Made by a program: the position numbers and the translations under genes
Part shown: one piece after another, positions 1-36,251 of the stretch
Numbering within the stretch: position 1 is the stretch's first letter
Layout: each line of letters opens with the position of its first letter
Source: an uncultured Holophagaceae bacterium
Lineage (GTDB): Bacteria; Acidobacteriota; Holophagae; Holophagales; Holophagaceae
DNA length: 64,000 bases
Assembly: GCA_903913215.1 (NCBI GenBank)
Contig: CAIWKE010000023.1
Span: 1 to 64,000, forward strand
Direction: 5' to 3'
Notes under the pieces: generated by a model
The model's input: the letters and a program-made list of their open reading frames with translations, nothing else
What the model was told of the DNA's origin: nothing
The model's database searches: none

Positions 1-340
<340 letters not shown>

Positions 341-628
341 TTAGCCCACGATCGCCAGGATCTCGTCCTCGCGCACGATGACGTGATCGACGTCGCCGAT
401 CTTCACTTCCGTGCCACTGTACTTGCCGATCAGCACCTTCTGGCCGGGCTTCACGGACATGGGATTGCGGGTGCCGTTCTCATTGATCTTGCCTTCGCCG
501 ACCGCCACCACCTCAGCCTCCATGGGCTTTTCCTTGGCGGAGTCCGGGATGATGATGCCGCCCTTGACGGTTTCGGCAGCTTCGACGCGCTTCAGAACCA
601 CGCGGTCGGAAAGGGGCTGGATGGCCAT
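341..628 (-). CDS. groES: Co-chaperonin GroES
   Basis: This is the 10 kDa co-chaperonin that caps the GroEL ring. The 95-residue length is normal. The sequence shows the family N-terminus (IQPLSDRVVLKRVEAAE), the mobile loop (KGGIIIPDSAKEKP) and the KVLIGKYSGTEVKI segment. The ATG at 628 has GAGG close upstream. It is the first gene of the groES-groEL operon, and the HrcA operator lies 40-66 bases upstream of its start. Confidence 0.98.
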   Translation of the reverse strand: MAIQPLSDRVVLKRVEAAETVKGGIIIPDSAKEKPMEAEVVAVGEGKINENGTRNPMSVKPGQKVLIGKYSGTEVKIGDVDHVIVREDEILAIVG

Positions 629-667
629 GGGACCTCCTCAATCTGGGTTGATGGAAAATTCAGGCTG

Positions 668-694
668 TTAGCACTCACCAACAGCGAGTGCCAA
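668..694 (-). promoter_or_regulatory. CIRCE element (HrcA operator) of groES-groEL
   Basis: The inverted repeat TTAGCACTC, nine bases, GAGTGCCAA matches the CIRCE consensus with one arm mismatch. CIRCE is bound by the heat-shock repressor HrcA. A TTGACG hexamer on the minus strand at 717-722 could be the -35 box; the matching -10 is poor, so the promoter itself is only a suggestion. Confidence 0.93.
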
Positions 695-836
695 GAGTGC
701 CACCCCAGCAGCCCCCCGTCAAGCCTGACGCTCCAAAATGAAGTAAAATTTAAGTCGTTTATCGAAGATTATCTTCCTCAGATCTGAACAACTGGAAAGC
801 CGAATCAGCGAGCCCATTGAGGTGTAGCCTCAATGC

Positions 837-1535
837 ATGGAACAACTCGTCACCCTCCGCGAACTGCAGGCCACCTTGGACTACCTGGCGACCATTCAGA
901 AGGAGTTGTCGAACCTCCCTCCTGATCTGGCCACCTTGGACCTCCGCGTCAAGTCTGCCGAGCGTCAGGTCGCTGAGAAGACCAAGACCCTGGAGACCAC
1001 CAGGGCCTCCCTGGCGGTCAAGGAGCGGGAGTTGATCCAGGCCCAGAAGGACGAGGACAAGGCCCGGGCCGCCCTGAAGGCCACCAACCAGAAGCTGCAG
1101 TACACCGCTGCCATTCGCGAACTGGACGAGAAGGAGCGGCTGCGGGCCGCCGTCCTCCGCCCCCTCAAGACCCTTCAGGCCAGCGCCTTGAACCTGGAAG
1201 CGGTCCTGACCACCCTGGAGACTGAGCGCCAGGCGGCTCAGGCCCAGTTCGACGAACTCTACGCCATCTTCCTCGATGAACATGCCAACCAGGTGGAGGG
1301 CCGGAAGGTCCTCCTGGTCAAGCAGGCCAAGCTGGAGGCCACCATCCCAGCGCCCGAGGTGGCTCGCTTCCACCGCCTCTACGGCGCCCGCCAAGGCCGT
1401 GTGGTGGTTCCAGTCGAGGGGAACGCCTGCACCGGCTGCAACGTGAAGCTGCGTAGTCCGCTGCTGTTCGAACTGCGGGAGGCCAAGACCATCGTCACCT
1501 GTGAGTCCTGCCAGCGGGTCCTCTTCCTGTCGTGA
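837..1535 (+). CDS. Zinc-ribbon, coiled-coil protein (COG1579/DUF164 type)
   Basis: The 232-residue protein has a long charged helical region (about residues 1-165, rich in Glu, Lys, Ala and Gln) that should form an antiparallel coiled coil. A C-terminal C4 zinc ribbon follows, with CTGC and CESC pairs about 25 residues apart. This is the architecture of the COG1579 family, thought to bind nucleic acid or act as an adaptor; its exact role is not settled. The stop overlaps the GTG start of the next gene (GTGA), so the two genes are probably translationally coupled. Confidence 0.85.
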   Translation: MEQLVTLRELQATLDYLATIQKELSNLPPDLATLDLRVKSAERQVAEKTKTLETTRASLAVKERELIQAQKDEDKARAALKATNQKLQYTAAIRELDEKERLRAAVLRPLKTLQASALNLEAVLTTLETERQAAQAQFDELYAIFLDEHANQVEGRKVLLVKQAKLEATIPAPEVARFHRLYGARQGRVVVPVEGNACTGCNVKLRSPLLFELREAKTIVTCESCQRVLFLS

Positions 1536-2197
1536 GCCTCGCGGCCCGCGTTGCCACCCTGCAGGCACGCATTCAGCGGGCCTGCGAGGCCGCGGGTCGC
1601 GATTCCGCCAGCCTGGAACTGCTGCCCGTCTCCAAGCGACAGCCTCTGGCCCTGATTCGCGCCGCTGCGGAACTGGGCTTCCGCCGCTTCGGCGAGAACT
1701 ACGTCCAAGAGGGCGCCGACAAGGCCAACGCCGCGCCGGACCTGGCTTTCCTACTCCTGGGGCCCCTCCAACGCAACAAGGCCAAAGCGGCCCTCCAGCA
1801 CTTCACAGAGCTCCAGAGCCTGGACCGCCCGGATCTGGTCGAACGCCTGCGACGCCTGGCGGTGGAACTCGATGTTGTCCGTCCCGTCTGGATCCAGGTG
1901 GACCTCTGGGACGAGGCCACCAAGCTGGGTGGCTGCTCTGAGACGGACCTCCCCGCCCTGCTCCACGCCCTGGGCGGGGATCCACGCCTGCCCCTGCAGG
2001 GCCTCATGGCCATCCCGCCCCCGGATCAAGTGGGCGCCTTCGCCCAGCTGGCCGGACTGCGCGACCGCCTGCAGCAGGAGCTGGGCCAACCCCTGCGCTT
2101 GAGCATGGGCATGAGCGGCGATCTCGAGGCCGCCATTGCCGCCGGCAGCGACCAGATCCGCATCGGTACGGCCTTCTTTGGTGAGCGGATCTATTGA
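1532..2197 (+). CDS. YggS-type PLP-binding protein (PLP homeostasis)
   Basis: A cytoplasmic alanine-racemase-fold protein that binds pyridoxal phosphate and buffers the vitamin B6 pool. The family marks are visible: the PLP lysine in PVSKRQP (Lys35), the FGENYVQE motif, LGPLQRNK, and the C-terminal LSMGMSGDLEAAI and IRIGTAFFG segments. The length of 221 residues is normal. The start is GTG at 1532, inside the stop of the preceding gene. The MGMSGD motif supports a functional phosphate-binding site. Confidence 0.93.
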   Translation: MSLAARVATLQARIQRACEAAGRDSASLELLPVSKRQPLALIRAAAELGFRRFGENYVQEGADKANAAPDLAFLLLGPLQRNKAKAALQHFTELQSLDRPDLVERLRRLAVELDVVRPVWIQVDLWDEATKLGGCSETDLPALLHALGGDPRLPLQGLMAIPPPDQVGAFAQLAGLRDRLQQELGQPLRLSMGMSGDLEAAIAAGSDQIRIGTAFFGERIY

Positions 2198-2230
2198 AGC
2201 CAGGGCCTGGGACAACCTACCCACGTTAGC

Positions 2231-2259
2231 CTTGGCGTCTTGGCGTCTTGGCGGTGATC
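2231..2259. repeat. Solitary half of the intergenic CTTGG-type repeat
   Basis: Tandem CTTGGCGT units end in GGCGGTGATCA. This matches the right arm of the inverted repeats at 8463-8522 and 45875-45956, but no left arm is seen here. It lies between the YggS and SRPBCC genes. Confidence 0.6.
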
Positions 2260-2287
2260 ATTTCTACTAGCCTCGGAGTTAGCCCAG

Positions 2288-2713
2288 ATGACCACACTCA
2301 AGACCGCCATCACCCCCCTGCCTGTCAGTGCCGACGCGCTCTATGGCTTCCTGTCGGACCTGTCGAAACACCGGGCCTTCCTGGAGCCAGCGGCCCTGAA
2401 CTTCCAGGGCAGCGAGGATTCACACAGCTACGTCATCGAAGTCATGGGCATGAAGATGCCCCAGGAGCTGGTCGTCAAGACCCGCGTCCCCGGCCAGTTG
2501 GTCACCCTCGTGCCCGGGGCCAGGAAGATGTTCGACCACGAGCTGCGGTTCGAGATCGTCGCCGACGGCGAGGGCAGCACCCTGCGCCTGGTGGACGAGG
2601 CCGACATCCCCACCATGATGGCCATGATGGGTGCCGAGAAGCTGCTCCAGGGCCAGCTGGACAGCGCCCTGGCCCACATCCAGGAACTGGCTGCGAGCGG
2701 ATCCATTTCATAA
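2288..2713 (+). CDS. SRPBCC (START-like) superfamily protein
   Basis: A 141-residue cytoplasmic protein without a signal peptide. Its opening (ITPLPVSADALYGFLSDLSKH) and the strand-rich middle followed by a long C-terminal helix match the polyketide-cyclase/SRPBCC lipid-binding fold. The ligand and role cannot be read from sequence. The Met-rich MGMKMP and TMMAMMG stretches are unusual. A GGAG lies upstream of the ATG. It is flanked on both sides by members of the intergenic repeat family and is probably transcribed alone. Confidence 0.7.
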   Translation: MTTLKTAITPLPVSADALYGFLSDLSKHRAFLEPAALNFQGSEDSHSYVIEVMGMKMPQELVVKTRVPGQLVTLVPGARKMFDHELRFEIVADGEGSTLRLVDEADIPTMMAMMGAEKLLQGQLDSALAHIQELAASGSIS

Positions 2714-2805
2714 ACACTCGCTGAGAGCACTGAGGAAACAGAGGGACGCGGAGGAAAGATTCCTTCTCAGCGTCCCTCTGCCTGTTCCTGAACCTCCCCG
2801 AGTGT
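2714..2805. repeat. Long imperfect inverted repeat
   Basis: The outer arms ACACTCG and CGAGTGT enclose AACAGAGGGACGC and GCGTCCCTCTGCCTGTT. The element follows the SRPBCC stop directly and could fold into a long hairpin in RNA. It has the intergenic position and style of the other repeats in this window but a different core sequence. Confidence 0.6.
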
Positions 2806-2900
2806 GGTTGATCATTTATTGAAAGGAACCACCCCCTCGCGGCATGTCCTGGTAGCGGGCCCTAGATTGGCCCATCCTTTCCCCGAAACTCGGAGGTTCC

Positions 2901-4334
2901 ATGCGTTCCCACCTGCTCCTCGCCGCCCTGCCCGCCCTCCTTGTGGCCCAGGAGACCCCCACCACGCTCAAAGACCAGAAGTCCCTGGCGGTGACCATCT
3001 ACAACGAGAACCTGGCCCTGGTGAAAGATCTGCGGGAGGTGAAACTCCCCCGGGGCGAAGCCCGGCTCGCCTTCCAGGAGGTCTCGGCCCAGATCCGCCC
3101 CGAGACGGCCCTGCTGCGGAACCTCACAGCCCCGAAGGACTTCTGGGTGGCGGAACAGAACTTCGACTTCGACCTGCTCACCCCCCAAAAACTTCTGGAG
3201 AAATACGTAGGCCAAAAAGTGAAGGTGGTCCGCAACGTGCCCAATCCCGATAGCGCTGGCGTCCGCGAGGTCCAGGAGGAGGCCAAAGTCCTGGCCACCA
3301 ACGGCGGCACCGTCCTCCAGTTCGCCGACCGCATCGAAACCAGCGCCCCGGGCCGGATCATCTTTCCGGGGGTGCCAGGGAACCTCCGAGCTCGGCCCAC
3401 CCTCGTCATCAGTCTCCACAGCGGCGTGGAAAAGGCCCAACAGGTGGAGTTGAGCTACCTCACTGGAGGCCTCTCCTGGAAGGCGGACTACGTGGCCAAC
3501 CTGGCCCCGGACGAGAAGACCCTGGACCTCAGCGGTTGGGTGACCCTCACCAACCAGAGCGGCGCCGCCTATCCCAACGCCACCCTGCAACTGGTGGCCG
3601 GGGACGTGAACCGAGTCCAGGAGCCTCGGGAACAACCCCAGGTCATGGCCATGGCCATGATGGAGCGCACGGCCAAGGCCGCTCCCCGCATGGCCGAGGA
3701 AAGCCTCTTCGAATACCACCTCTACACCTTGGACCACCCCACCACCCTGGCCGTGAACCAGACCAAGCAGGTAGCCCTGCTCAGCGCCTCCAGCGTGCCC
3801 GTCCGCAAGGAATACCTGCTGCAGGGCCAGGGCTACTACTACTCCGGGAGCTACGGCGAGCTGGGCGAGAAGCAGAAGGTGGGCGTCTTCGTGGAATTCG
3901 ACAACAAGGAATCCAGCCGCCTCGGCATGCCCCTGCCCAAGGGCACCATTCGGGTCTACAAGCGGGACAGCGAGGGCCGCGCCCAGTTCGTGGGCGAGGA
4001 CAGCCTCGACCACACCCCCAAGAACGAGCTGGTGCGCCTGAAGCTGGGCGATGCCTTTGATGTCACTGGCCACCGCAAGCAGACGGACTACAAAAGCCTG
4101 GGCCGCCAGGGCAAGTTCGGCAACGTCCACGAAAGCGCCTTCCAGATCGAGCTGAAGAACGCCAAGAAGGAACCCGTCACGGTGAGCGTCCTCGAGCCCA
4201 TGCCCGGCGACTGGGAGGTTCTCCAGGAGAGCCACCCCCACACCAAGGAAGCCGCCGGCAGCGCCCGGTTCAAGGTCACTGTGCCTGCGGAGGGCAGCAC
4301 GACGCTGACCTACCGCGTACGGGTGAAGTGGTGA
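2901..4334 (+). CDS. Exported DUF4139 domain protein
   Basis: The 477-residue protein starts with a short signal peptide (hydrophobic LLLAALPALLVAQ, cleavage near residue 16). The first domain opens with the NENLALVKDLREV segment typical of DUF4139 proteins. The central part (SYLTGGLSWKADYVANL, then DLSGWVTLTNQSG) and the C-terminal WEVLQESHP and TLTYRVRVKW strands fit the same family. The biochemical role is unknown; a periplasmic or surface location is inferred from the signal. It precedes the Bat-type operon by 38 bases and may be co-transcribed with it. Confidence 0.82.
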   Translation: MRSHLLLAALPALLVAQETPTTLKDQKSLAVTIYNENLALVKDLREVKLPRGEARLAFQEVSAQIRPETALLRNLTAPKDFWVAEQNFDFDLLTPQKLLEKYVGQKVKVVRNVPNPDSAGVREVQEEAKVLATNGGTVLQFADRIETSAPGRIIFPGVPGNLRARPTLVISLHSGVEKAQQVELSYLTGGLSWKADYVANLAPDEKTLDLSGWVTLTNQSGAAYPNATLQLVAGDVNRVQEPREQPQVMAMAMMERTAKAAPRMAEESLFEYHLYTLDHPTTLAVNQTKQVALLSASSVPVRKEYLLQGQGYYYSGSYGELGEKQKVGVFVEFDNKESSRLGMPLPKGTIRVYKRDSEGRAQFVGEDSLDHTPKNELVRLKLGDAFDVTGHRKQTDYKSLGRQGKFGNVHESAFQIELKNAKKEPVTVSVLEPMPGDWEVLQESHPHTKEAAGSARFKVTVPAEGSTTLTYRVRVKW

Positions 4335-4372
4335 GCTAGTCCACAGCCCATCCGCAGGCCATACTGGCCCCC

Positions 4373-5137
4373 ATGCCCCTGCCCGCCCGCTTCCTCGCCC
4401 GGCTGCGCCGGTTGCCGCTCCGCTTGAGGGGGCGGCTGACCGGGGGCACGGAGGGCCTGCATCCTTCCCGGTTCAAGGGCGCGGGGCTGACCTTCGTGGA
4501 GAACCGGCCCTACGTGCCCGGCGACGATCCGCGCTTCATCAACTGGCCCCTCACGGCGCGCACGGGGGAGCCCATACTGAAGCGCTTCGAAAGCAGCCGG
4601 GACTTGGTCCTGTGGCTGGTGGTGGACCCCTCTCCCTCCATGTTCCTGGGCGATCCGGTCTCGCCCCTGCGCTGGGCGCTCGAACTATGCGGTGCGGCCT
4701 TCGCCACCCTGCAGGCCACCGGGGATCGCCTGGGCCTGGTGGTGCCCGGCGATGGCCGCACGCCCGCCCTGCGCATCGCCCCCAAGCGGGGCCGCAGCCA
4801 CGGCCTGCGCATCCTGGAGACCCTGGCTGAGCGCGGCCCCTGCATCCCCACCGAGGCCTCCTGGCGTGAGGCCCTGGGCCACTGGGGTGAGCACGGCAAA
4901 GGGCACCGCCTCTGGCTCTTCAGCAACGGCGCGGGCCTTAAGGGCCTCGCCCCTCTCCTGAAGCCCCTGGCCACCCGCCATCGTCTGGTCTGGTTCCAGC
5001 CCGAGCCCCCCGGCGGCGTCCAGGCCATGACCTGGCCCGACCCTGGCTTTTCCAGCGCCATCGAGCACCAGCGATGGGATCCCCTCCTGGATCCCGTCGC
5101 GAAATTGAACACTTGGCTGCGGGCCGGTGGTGCCTGA
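4373..5137 (+). CDS. DUF58 domain protein of the Bat operon
   Basis: A 254-residue DUF58 (vWA-like) protein, normally found with MoxR ATPases and Bat proteins. The typical motifs are RYVPGDD-like (NRPYVPGDDPRFINWPLTART), the KRFESSRDLVLWLVVDPSPSM segment with a MIDAS-like DPSPS, and an N-terminal basic stretch. No moxR gene is visible upstream, where the family usually has one. The stop TGA overlaps the ATG of the next gene (TGATG), so translation of the block is likely coupled. Confidence 0.88.
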   Translation: MPLPARFLARLRRLPLRLRGRLTGGTEGLHPSRFKGAGLTFVENRPYVPGDDPRFINWPLTARTGEPILKRFESSRDLVLWLVVDPSPSMFLGDPVSPLRWALELCGAAFATLQATGDRLGLVVPGDGRTPALRIAPKRGRSHGLRILETLAERGPCIPTEASWREALGHWGEHGKGHRLWLFSNGAGLKGLAPLLKPLATRHRLVWFQPEPPGGVQAMTWPDPGFSSAIEHQRWDPLLDPVAKLNTWLRAGGA

Positions 5138-5985
5138 TGGGGAAGGTTGGGAGTCCCATTGAAGGGCCGTACCTGCTCAGGTTTCGCAGGCGAAACCTGA
5201 GGGATAAAAAAATCGCACTCGTGGTGGCTGCTTCCAGCTTGGTGGGCTTTGCTGCACCCACCTGGAAGGCTCCGGCCCAGTTAAAGCTGGGGGAACTGCA
5301 TGTGCTGGAGCTGCTGGAGGAGGACGCTGCCAAGGCCGCACCGCCCCGCCCCACGGTGGAGGACAACCTGGGGCCCTTGAAGCTGCGAGCTCTGGAGCCG
5401 CTGCCTGATGGCCGGGGCTGGCGCTTCCAGGTGCAGGCCCTGAGCCCGGGCCTGGCGGTGATCCCAGCCCTGGATCTGGGCACCGGCCAGCGCAGTCCGG
5501 AGCTGCGCCTGCCGGTACTGCGGGAGATCCCCTTCGGCGGGCCCTGGATGGGCTTCGGCGGCGGCAATGACGATCGTCTGCCGTCCCTGCCCTTCCCCTG
5601 GGCCTGGGCCAGCCTGCTGCTCCTGCCGCCCCTGGGGCTCCTGGCCTGGCTGCTCCGGCACTGGCGCCGGGGGGCTTCGGGACGTCATTTGCAGCACGCG
5701 CGTCAGACCTTCATTCAGCACTGGCCCCCCCGGGACCGGGAGCGCGGCACCCTCGATGCCGTTCACGGCCTGGGCCGAGAGCTCCTGGCCGCCCATTTCG
5801 GCGAGGCGGCCCGAGCTTGGGGTCCAGCCGAATTGCATGCGCGGAACCTCGGCGCCTGGGAGCAATGGGTCCGGAGCCTGGACGCGGCCCGGTTCGGCCG
5901 CACGGAGCCTCCCTTCCCGGCCCCAGAGCCTCTCATGGCGAACCTTCAGGCACTGCACATCACCCCGCCGGCAGGCCGACCTTGA
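5137..5985 (+). CDS. Bat-operon membrane protein (BatD-position)
   Basis: A 282-residue protein, not firmly recognised. Starting at 5137 (ATG overlapping the DUF58 stop) leaves an N-terminal basic stretch and hydrophobic segment (KKIALVVAASSLVGFAA). A middle extracytoplasmic part follows, then a transmembrane helix (about residues 150-180, SLPFPWAWASLLLLPPLGLLAWLL), then a cytoplasmic basic tail. Its place between DUF58 and BatA and its membrane layout suggest a shortened BatD-like partner, which is inference. An upstream ATG at 5074 would overlap DUF58 by 64 bases and is less likely. Confidence 0.7.
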   Translation: MGKVGSPIEGPYLLRFRRRNLRDKKIALVVAASSLVGFAAPTWKAPAQLKLGELHVLELLEEDAAKAAPPRPTVEDNLGPLKLRALEPLPDGRGWRFQVQALSPGLAVIPALDLGTGQRSPELRLPVLREIPFGGPWMGFGGGNDDRLPSLPFPWAWASLLLLPPLGLLAWLLRHWRRGASGRHLQHARQTFIQHWPPRDRERGTLDAVHGLGRELLAAHFGEAARAWGPAELHARNLGAWEQWVRSLDAARFGRTEPPFPAPEPLMANLQALHITPPAGRP

Positions 5986-6938
5986 TCGCCCTGCGCCATC
6001 CCCTCCTGTTCCTGGTGGCAGCCCCCGTGCTGCTCTGGGCCTGGCGTGTAGTCTATCGCTGGGGCATCCCTTCATCCCGACCCTCCAGCCGCATGGGTCG
6101 GCTCAGCTCCCACTGGCTGCCGGTGTTCCTGGCCCTGGCCCTGGGCCTGGCCGCGGCGGGCCCAGAGTGGCGCCGCCCCCTGCGCGGTACCGCTCCCGTG
6201 GTGGACTTCGCCGTCGTGCTGGACGGCAGCAGCAGCATGAAGATCCTGGACCGGCCCGATGAGGACCGCTGGCACGCGGCCCGCCGGACTCTGGCGCAGT
6301 TCATCCTCCGCCGCCCCGACGACCGCTTCGCCCTCATCCTGTTCAGCGCCCATCCTGTGACCCTGAGTCCCCTGACCGCAGACCACCTGCGCTTGCTGCG
6401 GATGCTGGCCCGCCTGGACATCGACAGCCGCGATGACGGCACGGCCATCGGTTCCGCCCTCATGACCGCCGTGCGGCGCCTGGAGGACAGCCCTGCCCGC
6501 AGCCGCGTCATTCTGCTCATTACAGACGGCGTGCAGAACCGCGGCCGGGTCACGGCCCTGGAGGCCGCTGAAGAAGCCCGCCGCCAGGGGATCCGCGTCC
6601 ACTGCGTGGGCATCGGCACCAATGGCGAGAGCCTAGTCCCCGTGGAGGGCGGCGGCCTCACCCGCCTCCACGTGGAGGTGGACCACACGACCCTCAAGGA
6701 GGTCGCCCGCCTCACGGGCGGCGAGGCCTTCAGCGCCGAAGATCCCGGTGGGCTCTCCCGCAGCCTGGCCGCCGTGGATCAATTGGAGAAGACCCTCCTG
6801 CCGGTGGACCCACCCACTGAGGGCCAGCCCCTGGCCCAGTGGAGCCTGCTGGCGGCCCTTCTCTTCGCCTTGCCTCTGGCCGTGGACCTCGCCTTCAAGC
6901 GGGGACAGGTTCGGCCTGCCTGGCTGGGGCAGCCATGA
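5982..6938 (+). CDS. BatA-like vWA membrane protein
   Basis: A 318-residue protein with an N-terminal membrane helix (IALRHPLLFLVAAPVLLWAW), a second helix near residue 50, a von Willebrand factor A domain and a C-terminal helix. The MIDAS motif DGSSS sits in FAVVLDGSSSMKIL, with the matching LLITDGVQNRG later. The family acts in membrane complexes linked to stress or envelope functions. The start is TTG at 5982, overlapping the previous stop as TTGA and placing the protein directly at its first membrane segment; the open frame extends upstream but without a better start. Confidence 0.88.
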   Translation: MIALRHPLLFLVAAPVLLWAWRVVYRWGIPSSRPSSRMGRLSSHWLPVFLALALGLAAAGPEWRRPLRGTAPVVDFAVVLDGSSSMKILDRPDEDRWHAARRTLAQFILRRPDDRFALILFSAHPVTLSPLTADHLRLLRMLARLDIDSRDDGTAIGSALMTAVRRLEDSPARSRVILLITDGVQNRGRVTALEAAEEARRQGIRVHCVGIGTNGESLVPVEGGGLTRLHVEVDHTTLKEVARLTGGEAFSAEDPGGLSRSLAAVDQLEKTLLPVDPPTEGQPLAQWSLLAALLFALPLAVDLAFKRGQVRPAWLGQP

Positions 6939-8458
6939 GCCTGCCCTTCACCCACCCCTGGGCGCTGCTGCCCGCCGCCATCCTGGTCCTACTGGTGCTC
7001 GGCTTGGCGCTGCGCGCCCACCTGCGGCCGGGCCTGGGCGTCCAAGTCGTGGGCCAACAGCCTCTCTGGCAGGGGCTGGGACTGGCCCTGGTACTCACAG
7101 GTCTGGGCCTGGGCCTGGCGGAGCCCCGTTGGGGCCTGCCGGAGTTCCCGCGCCTCACGGTGCATGTGGTGCTGGATGCCAGCCGGTCCATGCAGGTGCC
7201 CGATGCAGGCGCTGGGCGCACCCGCTGGGAGGCCGCCGTGGCGGCCCTGGATCGCATCTGGTCCCGACCCGAACCAGGGCTGCGCTGGAGCCTTGACCTG
7301 ATCAGCGGCGATGCCATACCGATCCAACCCCCGGGCGAGGACCGCACCCTCCTGCGAGAGGCCCTGCGCGCCGTGGTGCCCGGCGAGGTGGGCTCCCCGG
7401 GCACGAGCCTGGGCCGAAGCCTGCCCCAGGTGGCGGCCCAGGCGGAAGCGAATGCTCCCGCTGTTCTATTACTCCTCAGTGATGGCGAAGAGACCTGGGA
7501 AGCCCCCGAGGAGGCCCTGCAGCGGGCCGCTGGGATCTTGAAGAAGGCCCGCCTGCCCGTCTGCGTGATGAGCTTCGGCGATGGCCAACCCCATGCCGTG
7601 CCGCCGCGGCCCACCCCGCCGGGGGTCGCCGCGCCAACCAGCGCCGAGCCCGCAGCGAGCAGCGCCCACCCAGACTTCTTGACTCGTCTGGCCGAAGCAA
7701 CCGGCGGCCAGGTCTTCAAGGATGGCGAGGCCGCCGCCATCGGGCTCCAGGCCCTGGCTGCGGGCAGGCTGCCCCTGCCCGCCCGCCGCTCGCTGCAGCC
7801 CTCCCACCCCGAAGTCGGCGCCTGGCTGGCCCTGGCAGGGCTCGCCCTCTGGCTTCTGGGCGCCGGCAAGCCCATGGTCCGCTGGCGGCCCATCCTGCTG
7901 CTCCTCCTGGGGCTCTGCGCCCCCAGCCTGTCGGCCCAGAGCCTAACCCCCTGGGCCCCGCCCAGCGTGAGGGCCTGGCTGGCCCAGCGGGCCATCGAAG
8001 CCGGGGATCTGGCCGGGGCCCGCCGCTGGCGGCCCAGGGACGCGAAGCCGGATCATGCTCTGCTCGCGGCCCTCATCGACCTGCGCACAGGCTTTCCCGA
8101 GGATGCTTTGAAGGTCCTGGCGCCCTTCGTGGGTCAGGGTGCCCCGCGCCCCCTGCCTGCCTGGCGCACCCCGGCCCTGCTCCTGGCGGCTCGGGCCCAG
8201 CGGGAAGCGCTGCGCCCCGAGGAGGCCCGGGCCCTCCTGGAGCGGCTCCTGCTGGAGCAGCCTGGCCAGCGCGAGGCCATCCACGATTTGCAGACCCTGG
8301 TGAAGGACACCACGCCCCCGCCACCACCCAACCCCAAGAAGCCGCCCCCACCGCCCCCGCCCCGCCCCAGCATGGGTGCCCAGCAGGATGAGCTGGAGGG
8401 GATCAAACAGCGCCTACCCAAGCCGCCGCAGTCAGCAGGCGGGGTGAAAGATATTTAA
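6935..8458 (+). CDS. BatB-like vWA protein with BatC-like C-terminal tail
   Basis: The 507-residue protein starts at an ATG overlapping the BatA stop (ATGA). It has two N-terminal membrane helices, a vWA domain with MIDAS DASRS and LLLLSDGEETWE, and a membrane helix near residues 300-320. The C-terminal region after about 335 is helical and repeat-like (ALLAALIDLRTGFPEDAL), as in TPR-containing BatC. It ends in a proline run and QRLPKPPQSAGGVKDI, the kind of end seen on BatC. It therefore appears to join BatB and BatC functions in one chain. Confidence 0.82.
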   Translation: MSLPFTHPWALLPAAILVLLVLGLALRAHLRPGLGVQVVGQQPLWQGLGLALVLTGLGLGLAEPRWGLPEFPRLTVHVVLDASRSMQVPDAGAGRTRWEAAVAALDRIWSRPEPGLRWSLDLISGDAIPIQPPGEDRTLLREALRAVVPGEVGSPGTSLGRSLPQVAAQAEANAPAVLLLLSDGEETWEAPEEALQRAAGILKKARLPVCVMSFGDGQPHAVPPRPTPPGVAAPTSAEPAASSAHPDFLTRLAEATGGQVFKDGEAAAIGLQALAAGRLPLPARRSLQPSHPEVGAWLALAGLALWLLGAGKPMVRWRPILLLLLGLCAPSLSAQSLTPWAPPSVRAWLAQRAIEAGDLAGARRWRPRDAKPDHALLAALIDLRTGFPEDALKVLAPFVGQGAPRPLPAWRTPALLLAARAQREALRPEEARALLERLLLEQPGQREAIHDLQTLVKDTTPPPPPNPKKPPPPPPPRPSMGAQQDELEGIKQRLPKPPQSAGGVKDI

Positions 8459-8546: not shown

Positions 8547-8957
8547 CTATCTCTGGTTGTTCAGCCAGCCGGCGAACTCCGCCCCGGTCCTGAAGGCGCC
8601 CACCTGACGGTGCAGTTCCTTGCCGCTGGCGTCGAGGATCACCATGGTGGGAAAGGCGTCCAGGTTGAACTGCTGGGCCAGCTTGGTGCCTTCTGCCACG
8701 GGGGTGCCATCTCGTTTCTGCACCAGCGAGGAGAAGGGCACCACCTTGGCCAGGGCTGCTGCGGCTTCAGGGGTGGGGAAGACGTTCTTCTGGAGGTGCT
8801 GGCAGGGGCCGCACCACTCGGTCCAGAGGTCCATGAAGATGACCTTGTGCTCGGCCTTGGCACGCTTGAGGGCGGTCTGGTAATCGTGCTCCCAGACCAC
8901 GGGGCCCTGGGCCAGCAGGGGAGCGGCCAGGAGGAAGAGGACTGCGAGTGGCTTCAT
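8547..8957 (-). CDS. Exported thioredoxin-fold protein
   Basis: A 136-residue thioredoxin-like protein with a signal peptide (KPLAVLFLLAAPLLAQ). The redox motif WCGPC lies in DLWTEWCGPCQHLQ (Cys about 49 and 52), and the cis-proline is in LDAFPTMVILD. It resembles the thiol-disulfide interchange domain of DsbD and probably acts in the periplasm. A CGGAG ribosome site precedes the ATG. The client protein is not evident from the neighbours. Confidence 0.9.
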   Translation of the reverse strand: MKPLAVLFLLAAPLLAQGPVVWEHDYQTALKRAKAEHKVIFMDLWTEWCGPCQHLQKNVFPTPEAAAALAKVVPFSSLVQKRDGTPVAEGTKLAQQFNLDAFPTMVILDASGKELHRQVGAFRTGAEFAGWLNNQR

Positions 8958-9221
8958 GAGGGCTCCGGGTGGGCGAAGGACGCGTGAGGGATTGGATGGG
9001 TCCAGGCGGGGTTTTGTTCCAATTCCGGGTTTCCAGCTTAGGGAGCCCTTGCGGAATCATCAGCGCATTCTACCGTCATTCCCTTAGGGCCCCTTATGTC
9101 GCCCATGCCTTAAAACGAAAGGATCCTATCGGTCTGGCGACTTAGCGGCTAATCCGGGAAGAGCGCCCTTCGTAATCCCATTCGACCGGCAAGTGCCGAG
9201 CACCTTCCCAGGAGGCCGCCC

Positions 9222-9569
9222 ATGCGCGCCATCATGATCCCGCTGGCCCTGGCGGCCAGCCTCAGTCTCCCCCTGGCTGCGCAGACCGCGCGGTTCATCA
9301 AGGTCGACATCGTGTCCAAGACCATGCACGCCCACGCCAAGCACAAGGGCGTGGATGGCCCCACTGAGGTCCACGTGCGCATGCCCATCAGCCTGGCCAA
9401 GGGCGTCCTGGACATGGCTGGGGACAGCGAAATCAAGGTCAACGGCGAAGCCAGGCATGGTCTGAAGCCAGACCAGCTCCAGAAGCTCCTCTCGGACTCC
9501 AAGCCCGGGGATCTGCTCCTGGAAATCACCACGGACAAGGGCGATCACATCCGCGTCACCGTCGAGTAG
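9222..9569 (+). CDS. Small exported protein of unknown function
   Basis: A 115-residue protein with a clear signal peptide (AIMIPLALAASLSLPLAAQ). The mature part is short and charged, with a His-rich stretch (MHAHAKHKG) and a C-terminal segment SKPGDLLLEITTDKGDHIRVTVE of the kind seen in small beta-sandwich proteins. I do not recognise a family. AGGAGG lies seven bases before the ATG, and a strong terminator follows the stop. Confidence 0.7.
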   Translation: MRAIMIPLALAASLSLPLAAQTARFIKVDIVSKTMHAHAKHKGVDGPTEVHVRMPISLAKGVLDMAGDSEIKVNGEARHGLKPDQLQKLLSDSKPGDLLLEITTDKGDHIRVTVE

Positions 9570-10045: not shown

Positions 10046-10108
10046 GCCCAGGAGCGGCTTTGCCGCGAGTGTCCGCGTTAGTCTGCGCAGTGCAGAACTC
10101 CCGGACGG

Positions 10109-10735
10109 TTACCGGGCGCCCATGCAGTCGGACATGAGGGCCGTGAGGGCGACCATGACCCGCCGCCGGTCCTCGCTGAAGGCGTCTGTCTGGAAGCTCT
10201 GGAAGCTCACCAGCCCCGCCGGCCGGGGGCCCCAGCCCAGGGGCACGCCAAACCAGGTGTGGGGGATGAGGCCCGTGGCCTGCTCCGCCTCGGTCAGAAG
10301 GCTTCCGGCGGCGTGGCCCTCTTCCTGGGTCTTGAAGTAGACGGGGCGGCGCCCCGACAGCACCCGCTCCGAAAGGCCGATCCGGTCTGAGATGCGGCGC
10401 GAAGGGTGGTTCCGGGCCCGCCCACCCTCGTGGTAGAGCACGAACTGGAGCTGGTCCAGCTCCCAATCCGCTACGGCCACATAGAAGCAGGCCAGCCCCA
10501 GGGGCTTGAAGCAGACGTCAAGCAGATCCTGGCCCAGCTCCGCAGTTGCCTTGCCCGGCCGCATGCGCTCCAAGGCACCCAGCAGCAGGTTCCGATCTTC
10601 ATCCAGATGCCTGGCAAGCTCCTCGGCCCCTTCGACCCTGCCCTGGAGCCCTCGGCACTCGGATTCTAAATTCCGGAGCCGCTCCTCCCTTTGCTGGGTG
10701 GAGTCCTCCTGGAATTTCCCGCCGAAGAGACCCAT
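10109..10735 (-). CDS. Coiled-coil protein with GAF-like domain
   Basis: The 208-residue protein has an N-terminal coiled coil (about residues 8-60, REERLRNLESECRGL...) and a C-terminal region resembling a GAF sensor domain. The latter has the pattern GVPLG, GLVSFQS, FSEDRRRVMVALTALMS expected for the last strands and helix. There is no output domain, so it may act as a protein partner in signalling. This assignment rests on pattern only. It is transcribed divergently from cysS. Confidence 0.6.
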   Translation of the reverse strand: MGLFGGKFQEDSTQQREERLRNLESECRGLQGRVEGAEELARHLDEDRNLLLGALERMRPGKATAELGQDLLDVCFKPLGLACFYVAVADWELDQLQFVLYHEGGRARNHPSRRISDRIGLSERVLSGRRPVYFKTQEEGHAAGSLLTEAEQATGLIPHTWFGVPLGWGPRPAGLVSFQSFQTDAFSEDRRRVMVALTALMSDCMGAR

Positions 10736-18830: not shown

Positions 18831-19055
18831 CTCAGGGCCCTGATCCGAGTCGGGCAATCGTCACAGAGAAGGGCTGGCGCAAGCCCTTTCACAGAGCATG
18901 GACGACCCGGATGTCATGTTTTTCAAGGGGTTTTGGAATTGTCACAAGCGATATGACAAAAATCATCGTAACTCGTGACATTTCTTGTGATGCCCATCAC
19001 TAGCCTAAGTCATCACCTCTGACGATCATCATCTCCAGGAACACACGGAGCCGTC

Positions 19056-19253
19056 ATGAACATGGACACCGCCCGCCAGCACAACCCAGCCTTCTGGACC
19101 ACCGCCGAGCGCCTGCACGAAGTGTTCAATCAGCTGGAGCGCCAGATGGGCGGCTCCCCCCGCGGCCTCGCCGTCCTGCGCCAGGTCCAGGCCCTCGAAG
19201 CCGAGTTGGAAGCCGAGGTCATACACCGCAGCCGGCGCGCCGTGGCCGCCTGA
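19056..19253 (+). CDS. Small helical protein of unknown function
   Basis: A 65-residue protein, mostly helical (RLHEVFNQLERQMGG and VLRQVQALEAELEAEV), with no signal peptide. GGAG precedes the ATG. Its 225-base upstream region is AT-richer than the surroundings and carries TGTCA, nine bases, TGACA (18946-18964), and a TCACAAG/CTTGTGA pair (about 18949 and 18984) that could be operators. A perfect hairpin follows 15 bases after the stop. The isolated, self-contained unit suggests a real small gene; the function is unknown. Confidence 0.6.
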   Translation: MNMDTARQHNPAFWTTAERLHEVFNQLERQMGGSPRGLAVLRQVQALEAELEAEVIHRSRRAVAA

Positions 19254-19268
19254 TCGCCTTTCCGCACA

Positions 19269-19300
19269 CAGAACGGCCCGGCATACGCCGGGCCGTTCTG
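19269..19300 (+). terminator. Perfect 14-bp hairpin after the 65-residue gene
   Basis: CAGAACGGCCCGGC, loop ATAC, GCCGGGCCGTTCTG. There is no strong T run on either strand. A closely similar hairpin ends the C69 peptidase gene at 43982-44011, which supports a terminator role. Confidence 0.75.
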
Positions 19301-19358
19301 CGTAAGGGCTTAATTCCCCATTTGTCTCTTTCCCATACGAAACACGTGGCGTAGTCAG

Positions 19359-19504
19359 GTTTTCGCAATTCCGAACACCCGGCGAAAACAAGCAGCATGG
19401 AAAAGCGAAGACCCCGGGGGAGTTTCCAGGTCCGCGAGCCAAGAGCAAGTGGGAACAACGCTGCGCGTTGCGATACCTGGAGGCGCGCAGCGCGGAACCC
19501 CCGG
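19359..19504. other. Structured intergenic segment (candidate noncoding RNA)
   Basis: This 146-base stretch sits between the hairpins at 19269-19300 and 19514-19533 and contains no credible gene. Two modules are visible. The first is a hairpin, GTTTTCGC (19359-19366) with GCGAAAAC (19382-19389). The second is a nested stem: CCGGGGG (19414-19420) with CCCCCGG (19498-19504), CCAGGT (19426-19431) with ACCTGG (19475-19480), and an apical CAACGC-TGC-GCGTTG (19456-19470). The strand is undecided. It does not match the conserved parts of 6S, SRP, tmRNA or RNase P RNA that I know. Confidence 0.45.
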
Positions 19505-19513
19505 ACAGCAAAA

Positions 19514-19533
19514 GGGCACCCCGCAGGGTGCCC
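19514..19533 (-). terminator. Terminator of the malic enzyme gene
   Basis: Read on the minus strand: GGGCACCC, loop TGCG, GGGTGCCC, followed by TTTTG. It lies about 125 bases downstream of the malic enzyme stop. Confidence 0.8.
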
Positions 19534-19656
19534 AGATGTCTCGGCCTGATCTTGCGTGGGCCGGAAGGGGTGGTAGGTTTGGCCACCCCAGAGTGGGAGG
19601 AGGATACTCATCCCATTCATCAACTTAGGCCAGGATCAGTTGGCCACAATGGGCAA

Positions 19657-21387
19657 TTAGTCTCCCTTCAAGGGGGAGCCCGGACGGTAGGAGGCATACT
19701 TCGGCGCCCACTGGGCCCGGGTCATGGCCTCAGCCATCTGGGTGTCGTTCAGCAGTCGGCCCAGTCCGGCATTGCGGGCTTCGATCCCCACGGCGGTGGC
19801 CACAGCGGCGGAGACCTGCCGGATATCGTTCATTTCCGGCAACAGCAGACCCAGGGCTTCCTGGGCAGGCGTCACGAACGTGCTGATGGCCTTGCTGGCC
19901 GCCAGGAACATGCCGTCCGTGACGCGGGAGGCCTTGCAGACCAGGGAGCCCAGGCCCACGCCCGGGAAGATGTACATGTTGTTGCACTGGGAGGCCTGGA
20001 GGGTCTTGCCGTGCCAGTCCATGGGCGCGAAAGGGCTGCCCGTGGCCACTAGGCCCTTGCCATCCGTGGCCTTCCACACCGCTTCCGGCGAGCACTCACA
20101 CTTGTGCGTCGGGTTGGAGAGGGCCAACACGATGGGGCGCGCTGAGTGCTTGGCCGTCTCCGCCAGGATGGCCTCGCTGAAGAGCCCGGGCTGGGCCGTG
20201 ACGCCGATGAGCACCGTGGGGTGCGCGTTGCGCACCACGTCCTCAAGACCGATGCGATTAGCATCGTCCAGCTTCCAGCCGTCCACACAGGCACGCGCCT
20301 GCGCCAGGGGCAGTTGGGGGCCTTCCAATAGGGGATCACCTTCCAGCAGGAGCCCCTGCATGTCCACGGCGAAGATGCGCTTCCGGGCCTCTTCCTCGCT
20401 GAGCCCCTCTTCCAGCAGCATGGTGCGGATGTTCATGGCGATGCCCGTACCCGCCTGGCCCATGCCCACAATGACGTAGCGCTCATCCTGGAAGCGACTT
20501 TGCTTGATGCGCATGCCGGTCATGAGGGCCGCCAGGGCGGTGGATCCGGTGCCTTGGATGTCGTCGTTGAAGGAGAGGATGCGCTCGCGGTAGCGGTCAA
20601 GGTTCTTGAAGGCTGTCTGCTTGGCGAAGTCCTCCCACTGGAGCAGGGCTCCGGGGAAGTTGCGCTTCACACCCAGGATGAACTTCTCCACCAGCTCCTC
20701 GTACTCGGCGCCGCGCATGCGGGGCCGCCGGATGCCCAGGTAGAGCGGATCGTCCAGCAGGCGCTGGTTGTTGGTGCCCACATCCAGGGTCACCGCCAGG
20801 CAGACCGCCGGGTGCACACCGCCCGCGGCCACGTAGAGGCTCACCTTGCCCACGGGGATGCCCATGCCATCAGAGCCCAGGTCGCCCAGGCCCAGGATGC
20901 GCTCGCCGTCCGTGACCACGATGAGACTCACCTGGGGCTGGGAGAGGCCCTGGAAGATCTGGTCGATGTTCGCGATGTTCTCGGGGGTGATGTAGATGCC
21001 CCGATAGCGCCGCTGGATGTGGCTCAGCTGCATGCAGGCCTGGCCCACGGTGGGCGTGTAGACGATGGGAACCATCTCCTCCAGGTGATCCAGCAGCAGC
21101 CGGTAGAACAGGGGTTCGCTGCGATCCTGGAGGCCTGCCAGGTAGATGTAGCGCTCCAGGTCGTCGTGCTTGCGAAGGTAGGCCTCGTAGACGCGGTGGA
21201 CCTGGGTCTCCAGGCTGCCGAGACCGGGCCGCAGCATGCCGTCCAGGCCCAGGCTCAGGCGCTCCTCTTTCGTAAAGGCCGATCCCTTGTTCAGGTGGGA
21301 ATCATTCAGCAGCTGCCGCCCGCGGACGTAGATCTCGTAGAAATCCTCGCCGGTCAGCGGATCGATTTTGAATCCGAAGGTCTTCAT
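19657..21387 (-). CDS. NAD-dependent malic enzyme
   Basis: A 576-residue cytoplasmic enzyme converting malate to pyruvate and CO2. The length and motifs are those of the large malic enzyme family: MVPIVYTPTVGQACMQLSHI, the catalytic-lysine region IPVGKVSLYVAAGGVHP, the metal-binding NDDIQGTGS, the dinucleotide fold VGMGQAGTGIA, and LALSNPTHKCECSPE. The ATG at 21387 is preferred because AAGGGGGA lies six bases upstream and the family N-terminus starts there; a longer frame to 21540 adds low-complexity residues. Confidence 0.93.
   Translation of the reverse strand: MKTFGFKIDPLTGEDFYEIYVRGRQLLNDSHLNKGSAFTKEERLSLGLDGMLRPGLGSLETQVHRVYEAYLRKHDDLERYIYLAGLQDRSEPLFYRLLLDHLEEMVPIVYTPTVGQACMQLSHIQRRYRGIYITPENIANIDQIFQGLSQPQVSLIVVTDGERILGLGDLGSDGMGIPVGKVSLYVAAGGVHPAVCLAVTLDVGTNNQRLLDDPLYLGIRRPRMRGAEYEELVEKFILGVKRNFPGALLQWEDFAKQTAFKNLDRYRERILSFNDDIQGTGSTALAALMTGMRIKQSRFQDERYVIVGMGQAGTGIAMNIRTMLLEEGLSEEEARKRIFAVDMQGLLLEGDPLLEGPQLPLAQARACVDGWKLDDANRIGLEDVVRNAHPTVLIGVTAQPGLFSEAILAETAKHSARPIVLALSNPTHKCECSPEAVWKATDGKGLVATGSPFAPMDWHGKTLQASQCNNMYIFPGVGLGSLVCKASRVTDGMFLAASKAISTFVTPAQEALGLLLPEMNDIRQVSAAVATAVGIEARNAGLGRLLNDTQMAEAMTRAQWAPKYASYRPGSPLKGD

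Positions 21388-36173: not shown

Positions 36174-36251
<78 letters not shown>

Follow-up and report, generated by a model that had tools for sequence, protein, structure and literature searches.

A mosaic interspersed repeat of Geothrix and its nearest relatives that carries a covarying three-helix core

The intergenic segment at positions 19359-19510 (+ strand) of the window, a 64,000-nt stretch of DNA from an uncultured Holophagaceae bacterium, belongs, we are highly confident, to a family of mosaic repeats interspersed in the genomes of Geothrix and its nearest relatives. This copy is of what we call the S type, and the explanation that in our judgement best and probably correctly accounts for the observations as a whole is a MITE-/REP-like S-type repeat that was spread in trans and whose core is kept for the fold of a single strand. 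Taken separately, spread in trans is the reading towards which we lean, and a role of the core at the level of RNA is a possibility that we put forward tentatively. The genome of the window copy (3.9 Mb, 95% complete) carries ruvC (PF02075, Pfam) to the left of the element, followed by a 65-codon ORF at 19056-19253 (+) for which no Pfam match was found, and to the right a malic-enzyme gene (PF00390/PF03949, Pfam); the ruvC side and the malic-enzyme gene lie on opposite strands, so the element sits between convergent genes.

The initial annotation had noted two stem modules between hairpins at 19269-19300 and 19514-19533. Both hairpins are present, and the modules could be delineated between them as hairpin A (19359-19412) and the core (about 19413-19503). 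Hairpin A, assigned to 19359-19411 of the S-type repeat and reaching 19412 in the fold, is a variable stem that is long and irregular in the window copy, and in about 14 further copies that we folded another well-paired stem occupies its position (by eye). The conserved three-helix core (19412-19498, + strand) is about 87 nt in size with a three-way junction, and is defined by covariation and by covariance model R1, which gives the window copy 92.1 bits, a score to be read with the window copy itself among the 25 BLAST-found copies from which R1 was built. Its mapped pairs form helix 1 (19424-19431/19475-19482), helix 2 (19432-19439/19445-19452), with an inner 2x2 that is GA/AA in the window copy and GA/GA in most relatives, and helix 3 (19455-19461/19465-19471), where 19455/19471 is an A-C mismatch in the window copy. 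A shell helix closes the module: its 5' arm GGGGG (19416-19420) pairs with CCCCC at 19498-19502 in the alignment consensus, and the same GGGGG/CCCCC closes the second stem module when 19359-19510 is folded. The 3' arm of the shell belongs to a conserved tail motif, GAGGCGCGCAGCGCGGAACCCCCGGACA (19483-19510), which elsewhere in the same genome also occurs without a core.

The whole 19301-19540 interval (240 nt) folds better than shuffled sequences, with z -2.59. For 19359-19510 (152 nt) the + strand reaches z -3.46, with 1 of 200 shuffles equally good, and the minus strand z -2.23, with 7 of 200. The structure is real, and its decisive support is covariation in relatives. Compensatory base changes, which the initial annotation had proposed to look for, were found in two sets of copies. 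To the pattern-derived set, 75 of 80 listed loci and the window copy together contribute 90 aligned copies, of which 86 are distinct; five loci (L099, L104, L112, L144 and L171) were left out for giving no match at E <= 0.001. In this set 95.9% of cells pair as against 83.8% after shuffling, double changes occur at 16 of 26 pairs and in 251 cells versus 77.6 in shuffles, and none of 500 shuffles reaches any of the five measures; when the partner was shifted by 1-3 columns as a slid control, pairing fell to 30-50%. It should be noted that the search pattern fixes many bases and thereby imposes the invariant columns of the 90-copy set, so that only the pattern-free pairs and the BLAST-found set are unbiased there, and that copies within one genome and at orthologous sites are not independent. 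For the three core helices of the 25 BLAST-found copies, pairing is 96.2%, with 45 double-change cells versus 15.3.

The substitutions also indicate which strand is folded. GU pairs outnumber AC mismatches by 44:4 in the pattern-derived set, by 27:5 in the BLAST-found set and, when only the nine pairs with neither side fixed by the search pattern are counted, by 39:3, and from this excess of G-U wobbles we conclude that the + strand is the strand whose fold is kept. The inner 2x2 of helix 2 reads GA/GA in 14 of the 25 copies and GC/GC in four, the other seven being AA/GC (three), GA/AA (the window copy), CA/AU, AA/GA and GC/GA. Both GA/GA and GC/GC are able to stack on the + (core-sense) strand; the GA/GA of that strand would read TC/TC on the other.

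Matches to the family come from a narrow part of the phylum. A BLAST-type search with 19359-19510 in 41 genomes, 25 of which belong to the genus Geothrix including the window's own, gave matches in 24, all within the genus (24/25) and mostly via 19412-19510. At E <= 0.001, R1 finds the core in all 47 Geothrix genomes, with 1-20 matches per genome and three in the window's own. At the same threshold, a draw of 297 genomes across the phylum yields 23 with the core, every one a member of the same family (Holophagaceae) and together covering 3 of 167 genera; four of the 27 genomes of that family in the draw, each from another genus, are without a core match. The exact core pattern occurs in 84 stretches of an 84,980-species collection, and among the 80 matches listed of these 84 all are titled Geothrix, Holophagaceae or 'Acidobacteria bacterium'. 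The cultured strain G. fermentans DSM 14018 is among the carriers of the core (L130, L133 and L162). A phage origin was rejected, as a search for exact matches to the core pattern found none among viral contigs. The S tail motif, allowing <=3 mismatches, occurs 20 times in the window's own genome versus 0 for a reversed control, and 3-33 times in each of the 11 genomes searched, where reversed controls gave 0-2; eight of the other 19 places in the own genome were aligned with the window copy, and each of them proved to be a core-less short form. No such family is named in the titles and opening abstract lines of published work on Geothrix/Holophagae repeats, RNAs or transposable elements.

The initial annotation had seen in the element no motifs of the common RNA families that it checked by eye. 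Scanned with Rfam at gathering score, the whole window gave a single match, a tRNA at 36175-36248, and the element was unmatched. A permissive scan of 19000-19700 returned seven matches, none of which reached its gathering score; sX6 (E 0.0041), the highest-ranking of them, lies to the left of the element at 19192-19311, and the one that overlaps the element is CRISPR-DR29, on the minus strand and at E 0.52. On ten carrier loci of relatives, Rfam up to E 0.1 matched RNase P only (L047). A known Rfam RNA was thus rejected, there being no match to the element over threshold in the window or at the ten relatives' loci.

Strong covariation, preference for one strand and the missing Rfam match would all suit a new RNA specific to this locus, either a discrete small RNA or a cis-regulatory one, but comparison of the same site between species makes this very unlikely. 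In an alignment at the malic-enzyme side, for which 20 rows were chosen from 30 loci, the core form is found at the site of the window copy in two rows (the window copy and G013), a short or palindrome form in five (G017, G045, G006, G014 and G005, the last with two tandem copies), and no evident S element, by eye, in 13, among them L196, which aligns poorly there. With core form, core-less form and none distributed across the rows, the site is polymorphic between species in both presence and module, and a fixed single-copy orthologue in all relatives was not seen among these 20 same-site rows. Also speaking against an RNA of this locus are the dispersal of the core, with 1-20 matches per genome and three in this one, the differing gene neighbours at eight loci examined, and the failure to find a sigma-70-like promoter in 19200-19720. 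Of the noncoding RNA envisaged in the initial annotation, a conserved one-strand fold without an Rfam match therefore stands, and a locus-specific ncRNA gene does not, since the repeat is dispersed and 18 of the 20 same-site rows lack the core form. A structure scan of a single genome would misread such a repeat as a locus-specific ncRNA.

The mosaic nature of the family is evident from its modules and its carriers. In S-type copies a hairpin that varies in sequence is followed by GCGGGGGTCCGGGGG, then by a module and lastly by GCGCGCAGCGCGGAACCCCCGGACA. The place of the module can be taken by the three-helix core, as in the window copy, by a TAGATCC palindrome or by a short link; no terminal inverted repeats or clear target duplication could be defined for this type. 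The core is common to at least three carrier types with different ends, S, L and T. L-type elements have CTAG at their ends and measure 297 and 231 bp in the two copies that show both CTAGs (L039, L044); one left end is CGAG (L040), and several copies lie at contig ends in G004 and G008. T-type elements are bounded by MITE-like 19-bp inverted ends, GAGTGCCTAACAAAACCCC and its complement, and are 361-407 bp long in the 11 aligned copies with both ends found. They hold the core on both strands and can contain two inverted cores (L132, L141, L150, and L169 by pattern), and in all five T copies of 270 bp that were fetched no core was seen by eye. Allowing <=2 mismatches, T ends are present in 15 of 17 genomes searched, with none in the window's own. 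For 16 T copies both ends could be located, and in 7 of them the two flanking triplets agree, always with the form TNA. As a separate observation, 11 of these 16 (L221-L225, L079-L083, L085, L089, L091-L093 and L096; 270 to 407 bp) have a stop triplet as their left flank.

DDE insertion sequences with TNA target duplication are known from the IS1031/ISL2-like groups of IS5, which the T-type inverted ends and TNA flanks presumably resemble. The 19-bp inverted ends and mostly TNA flanks of the T carriers recall MITEs of DDE elements; unlike these, the family has no autonomous partner that we could find, its S type is without such ends and the window's own genome is without T ends. In 17 genomes, inverted T ends (<=2 mismatches) pair over about 50-410 bp, several ends having no partner, and none pairs at insertion-sequence length. 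An autonomous insertion sequence with T ends was rejected on this basis.

S copies often stand in a fixed register to the stop codon of the neighbouring gene. Of 25 S copies, 17 have an intact tail by pattern, seven were set aside as lacking one and one (L025) was unparsed. In 12 of the 17, an opposite-strand stop triplet ends 5 nt (11 copies) or 6 nt (one copy) before TCCGGGG, against a background of 6.9%; since L011, L012, L015 and L019 apparently share an orthologous site and L009 and L016 share a second, 9/13 is the fairer count. L009 and L016 are the window-site copies, and both are negative for the register. Among the seven set aside, L033 was misparsed, and by eye the register is absent from it.

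Gene context was read at eight loci, between which the neighbouring genes differ. By Pfam, the gene running toward the tail belongs to the FUR family in L175, is secDF in L115 and is a response regulator in L119. In L176, likewise by Pfam, the copy lies between the genes for ribosomal proteins L24 and L5, with L24 running toward the tail and L5 beyond the element. An 86-codon ORF, which we read as L27, runs toward the tail in L165, and an 89-codon ORF, read as S15, does so in L156, with tandem units between. The adjoining gene in L163 is RNase P RNA, whose 3' end is 33 nt from the core, and in L110 the gene context is cut off by the end of the locus. At seven of these eight loci the strand that carries the core runs antisense to the gene next to it. 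An apparent exception to this rule is L233, a copy in the window's own genome in which the core, judged by eye, comes after a + strand stop; the T carriers, with the core on both strands, also speak against it. Of note, by Rfam and core matches the core lies near the RNase P RNA 3' end in two species (760-1125 and 1217-1304 in L047; 5255-5343 and 5376-5741 in L163).

Many copies lie directly behind stop codons, and on the minus strand TTT-rich sequence often comes after hairpin A (by eye); both would be compatible with a terminator of transcription in two directions or with a REP-like stabiliser of mRNA 3' ends. However, GU is tolerated on the strand opposite the adjoining gene and not on its mRNA strand, the copy in L176 separates the L24 gene from the L5 gene, a place where strong termination would do harm, and the window copy has no terminator-like site on its + strand, so that we consider this reading rather unlikely. 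The long bidirectional termination zone suggested in the initial annotation suits the flanking hairpins better than the element, whose minus strand offers one weak 5-pair terminator-like site and whose + strand offers none.

A fold that is strand-specific and tolerates wobble and tandem GA pairs, in S copies that are antisense to the adjoining gene in seven of eight loci, could also be a single-stranded DNA signal that is recognised in folded form by an HUH (Y1) transposase or some other ssDNA enzyme. We think this unlikely, since no more than 5 of 47 Geothrix genomes gave a match to the Y1_Tnp (RAYT-type) transposase, the window's own (95% complete) giving none, and since the T-type ends resemble those of a DDE element. 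A REPIN/RAYT system was rejected on the same counts of Y1 transposases in the own genome and the genus.

Integron attC sites have a strand and stop-codon placement like that of the Geothrix element. Of 47 Geothrix genomes 29, though not the window's own, have an integron integrase that scores above the cut-off, compared with none of 14 controls, and T ends contain GCCTAAC/GTTAGGC. Nevertheless, neither RYYYAAC nor GTTRRRY occurs on either strand of 19301-19540 and no core match was found at three integrase loci, so that an attC recombination site, contradicted for the window copy, was rejected and retains next to no credence. G044 carries a chromosomal integron (L237, G044:C1:573000-591000) with an integrase (TIGR02249) at about 8572-9516 and 14 attC-like repeats of ~142 nt at 97-7643. 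In an alignment of seven of these repeats, GTTAGG can be seen together with GCCTAAC or a form that differs from it by one base. The array differs in sequence from the element and has no core match, and the integrase locus has no T ends, all of which speaks against an attC identity.

HEARO / IscB omega RNA is a structured RNA carried on a mobile element, and in this respect it is similar to the Geothrix core; the difference is that the ten carrier loci match only RNase P in Rfam (E 0.1). RRXRR (IscB) was found in 0 of 47 genomes, but control genomes were equally silent and the count is not evidence of absence. A closer likeness is offered by the pneumococcal BOX, RUP and SPRITE elements, composite intergenic repeats with swappable modules and strong predicted RNA structure for which mobilisation in trans has been proposed (PMC3049150). 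The Geothrix repeats are likewise composite, intergenic and endowed with exchangeable modules and a strong predicted RNA structure, and the exchange of modules within a dispersed repeat that marks BOX was found here, both as a swap at the same site and in the core, palindrome and short forms. Unlike BOX, RUP and SPRITE, the Geothrix core is common to types with different ends, its covariation was tested and its copies have a stop-codon register; no sequence relation is claimed. REP, BIME and REPIN sequences and GTAG/CGTC-tagged palindromes are dispersed, extragenic and often paired or tandem (PMC3733652). The Geothrix repeats share with REP, BIME and REPIN the character of dispersed extragenic palindromes, often in pairs or tandem, and differ from them in a core of ~87 nt with a three-way junction and in an own genome without a Y1 transposase. 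The most fitting classification is that of a new family of mosaic interspersed repeats that behaves in the manner of BOX, REP or MITE elements; we claim membership for it in neither REP nor MITE.

How such a family might have arisen can be sketched from these comparisons. The S shell, consisting of hairpin A and GCGGGGGTCCGGGGG ... GCGCGCAGCGCGGAACCCCCGGACA, receives different modules, and the elements, being presumably non-autonomous, would have been spread by transposases acting in trans. Copies that landed exactly behind a stop codon may have survived because the gene stays intact. The core might then be kept because it is folded as one single strand, which is the weakest step of the scheme. 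That the fold is preserved on one strand suggests that this strand functions in single-stranded form, and RNA is favoured since the same fold recurs in elements with different ends and so is unlikely to be only a transposition end; the core would most likely fold as RNA in read-through or antisense transcripts of 3' regions, where it would serve as a compact structure at gene ends. A bolder proposal, which we regard as doubtful, is that the core defines a hitherto unrecognised class of structured RNA that travels as a passenger in several unrelated mobile repeats and acts in transcripts antisense to gene 3' ends, with transposition distributing a ready-made regulatory RNA. Apart from this, the family represents a lineage-wide, covariation-supported structured repeat without an Rfam match from a little-studied phylum, and one folded module that recurs in at least three element types with differing ends, is conserved on one strand and often lies right behind stop codons provides a clear test case for whether small mobile repeats are purely selfish or carry working RNA parts.

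The two flanking hairpins lie outside the repeat. The left one, AGAACGGCCCGGC-ATAC-GCCGGGCCGTTCT with one closing pair (19269-19300, +), is downstream of the ORF at 19056-19253; its orthologues in L184, L185, L197 and L201 run into T-rich tails (by eye), and several orthologues look like intrinsic terminators. The right one (19514-19533, minus strand) emerged from a terminator scan as a terminator-like hairpin closing a conserved block beside the malic-enzyme gene (19534-19655, minus strand), and is explained as the end of this block, which an alignment of 16 rows and a fold set apart from the repeat. Over ~100 nt the block is far more conserved in the 16 rows than its surroundings, and in many rows it is preceded by TTGAG...TAGCCT-like boxes (by eye). 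It had no Rfam match in three relatives, and 2 of 32 predicted pairs of its fold show double changes, few because the sequence hardly varies; we regard it as a candidate small RNA or 3' UTR. Elsewhere in the window, a 3-mismatch match at 10085-10105 marks a possible decayed second S tail motif (10060-10110, + strand).
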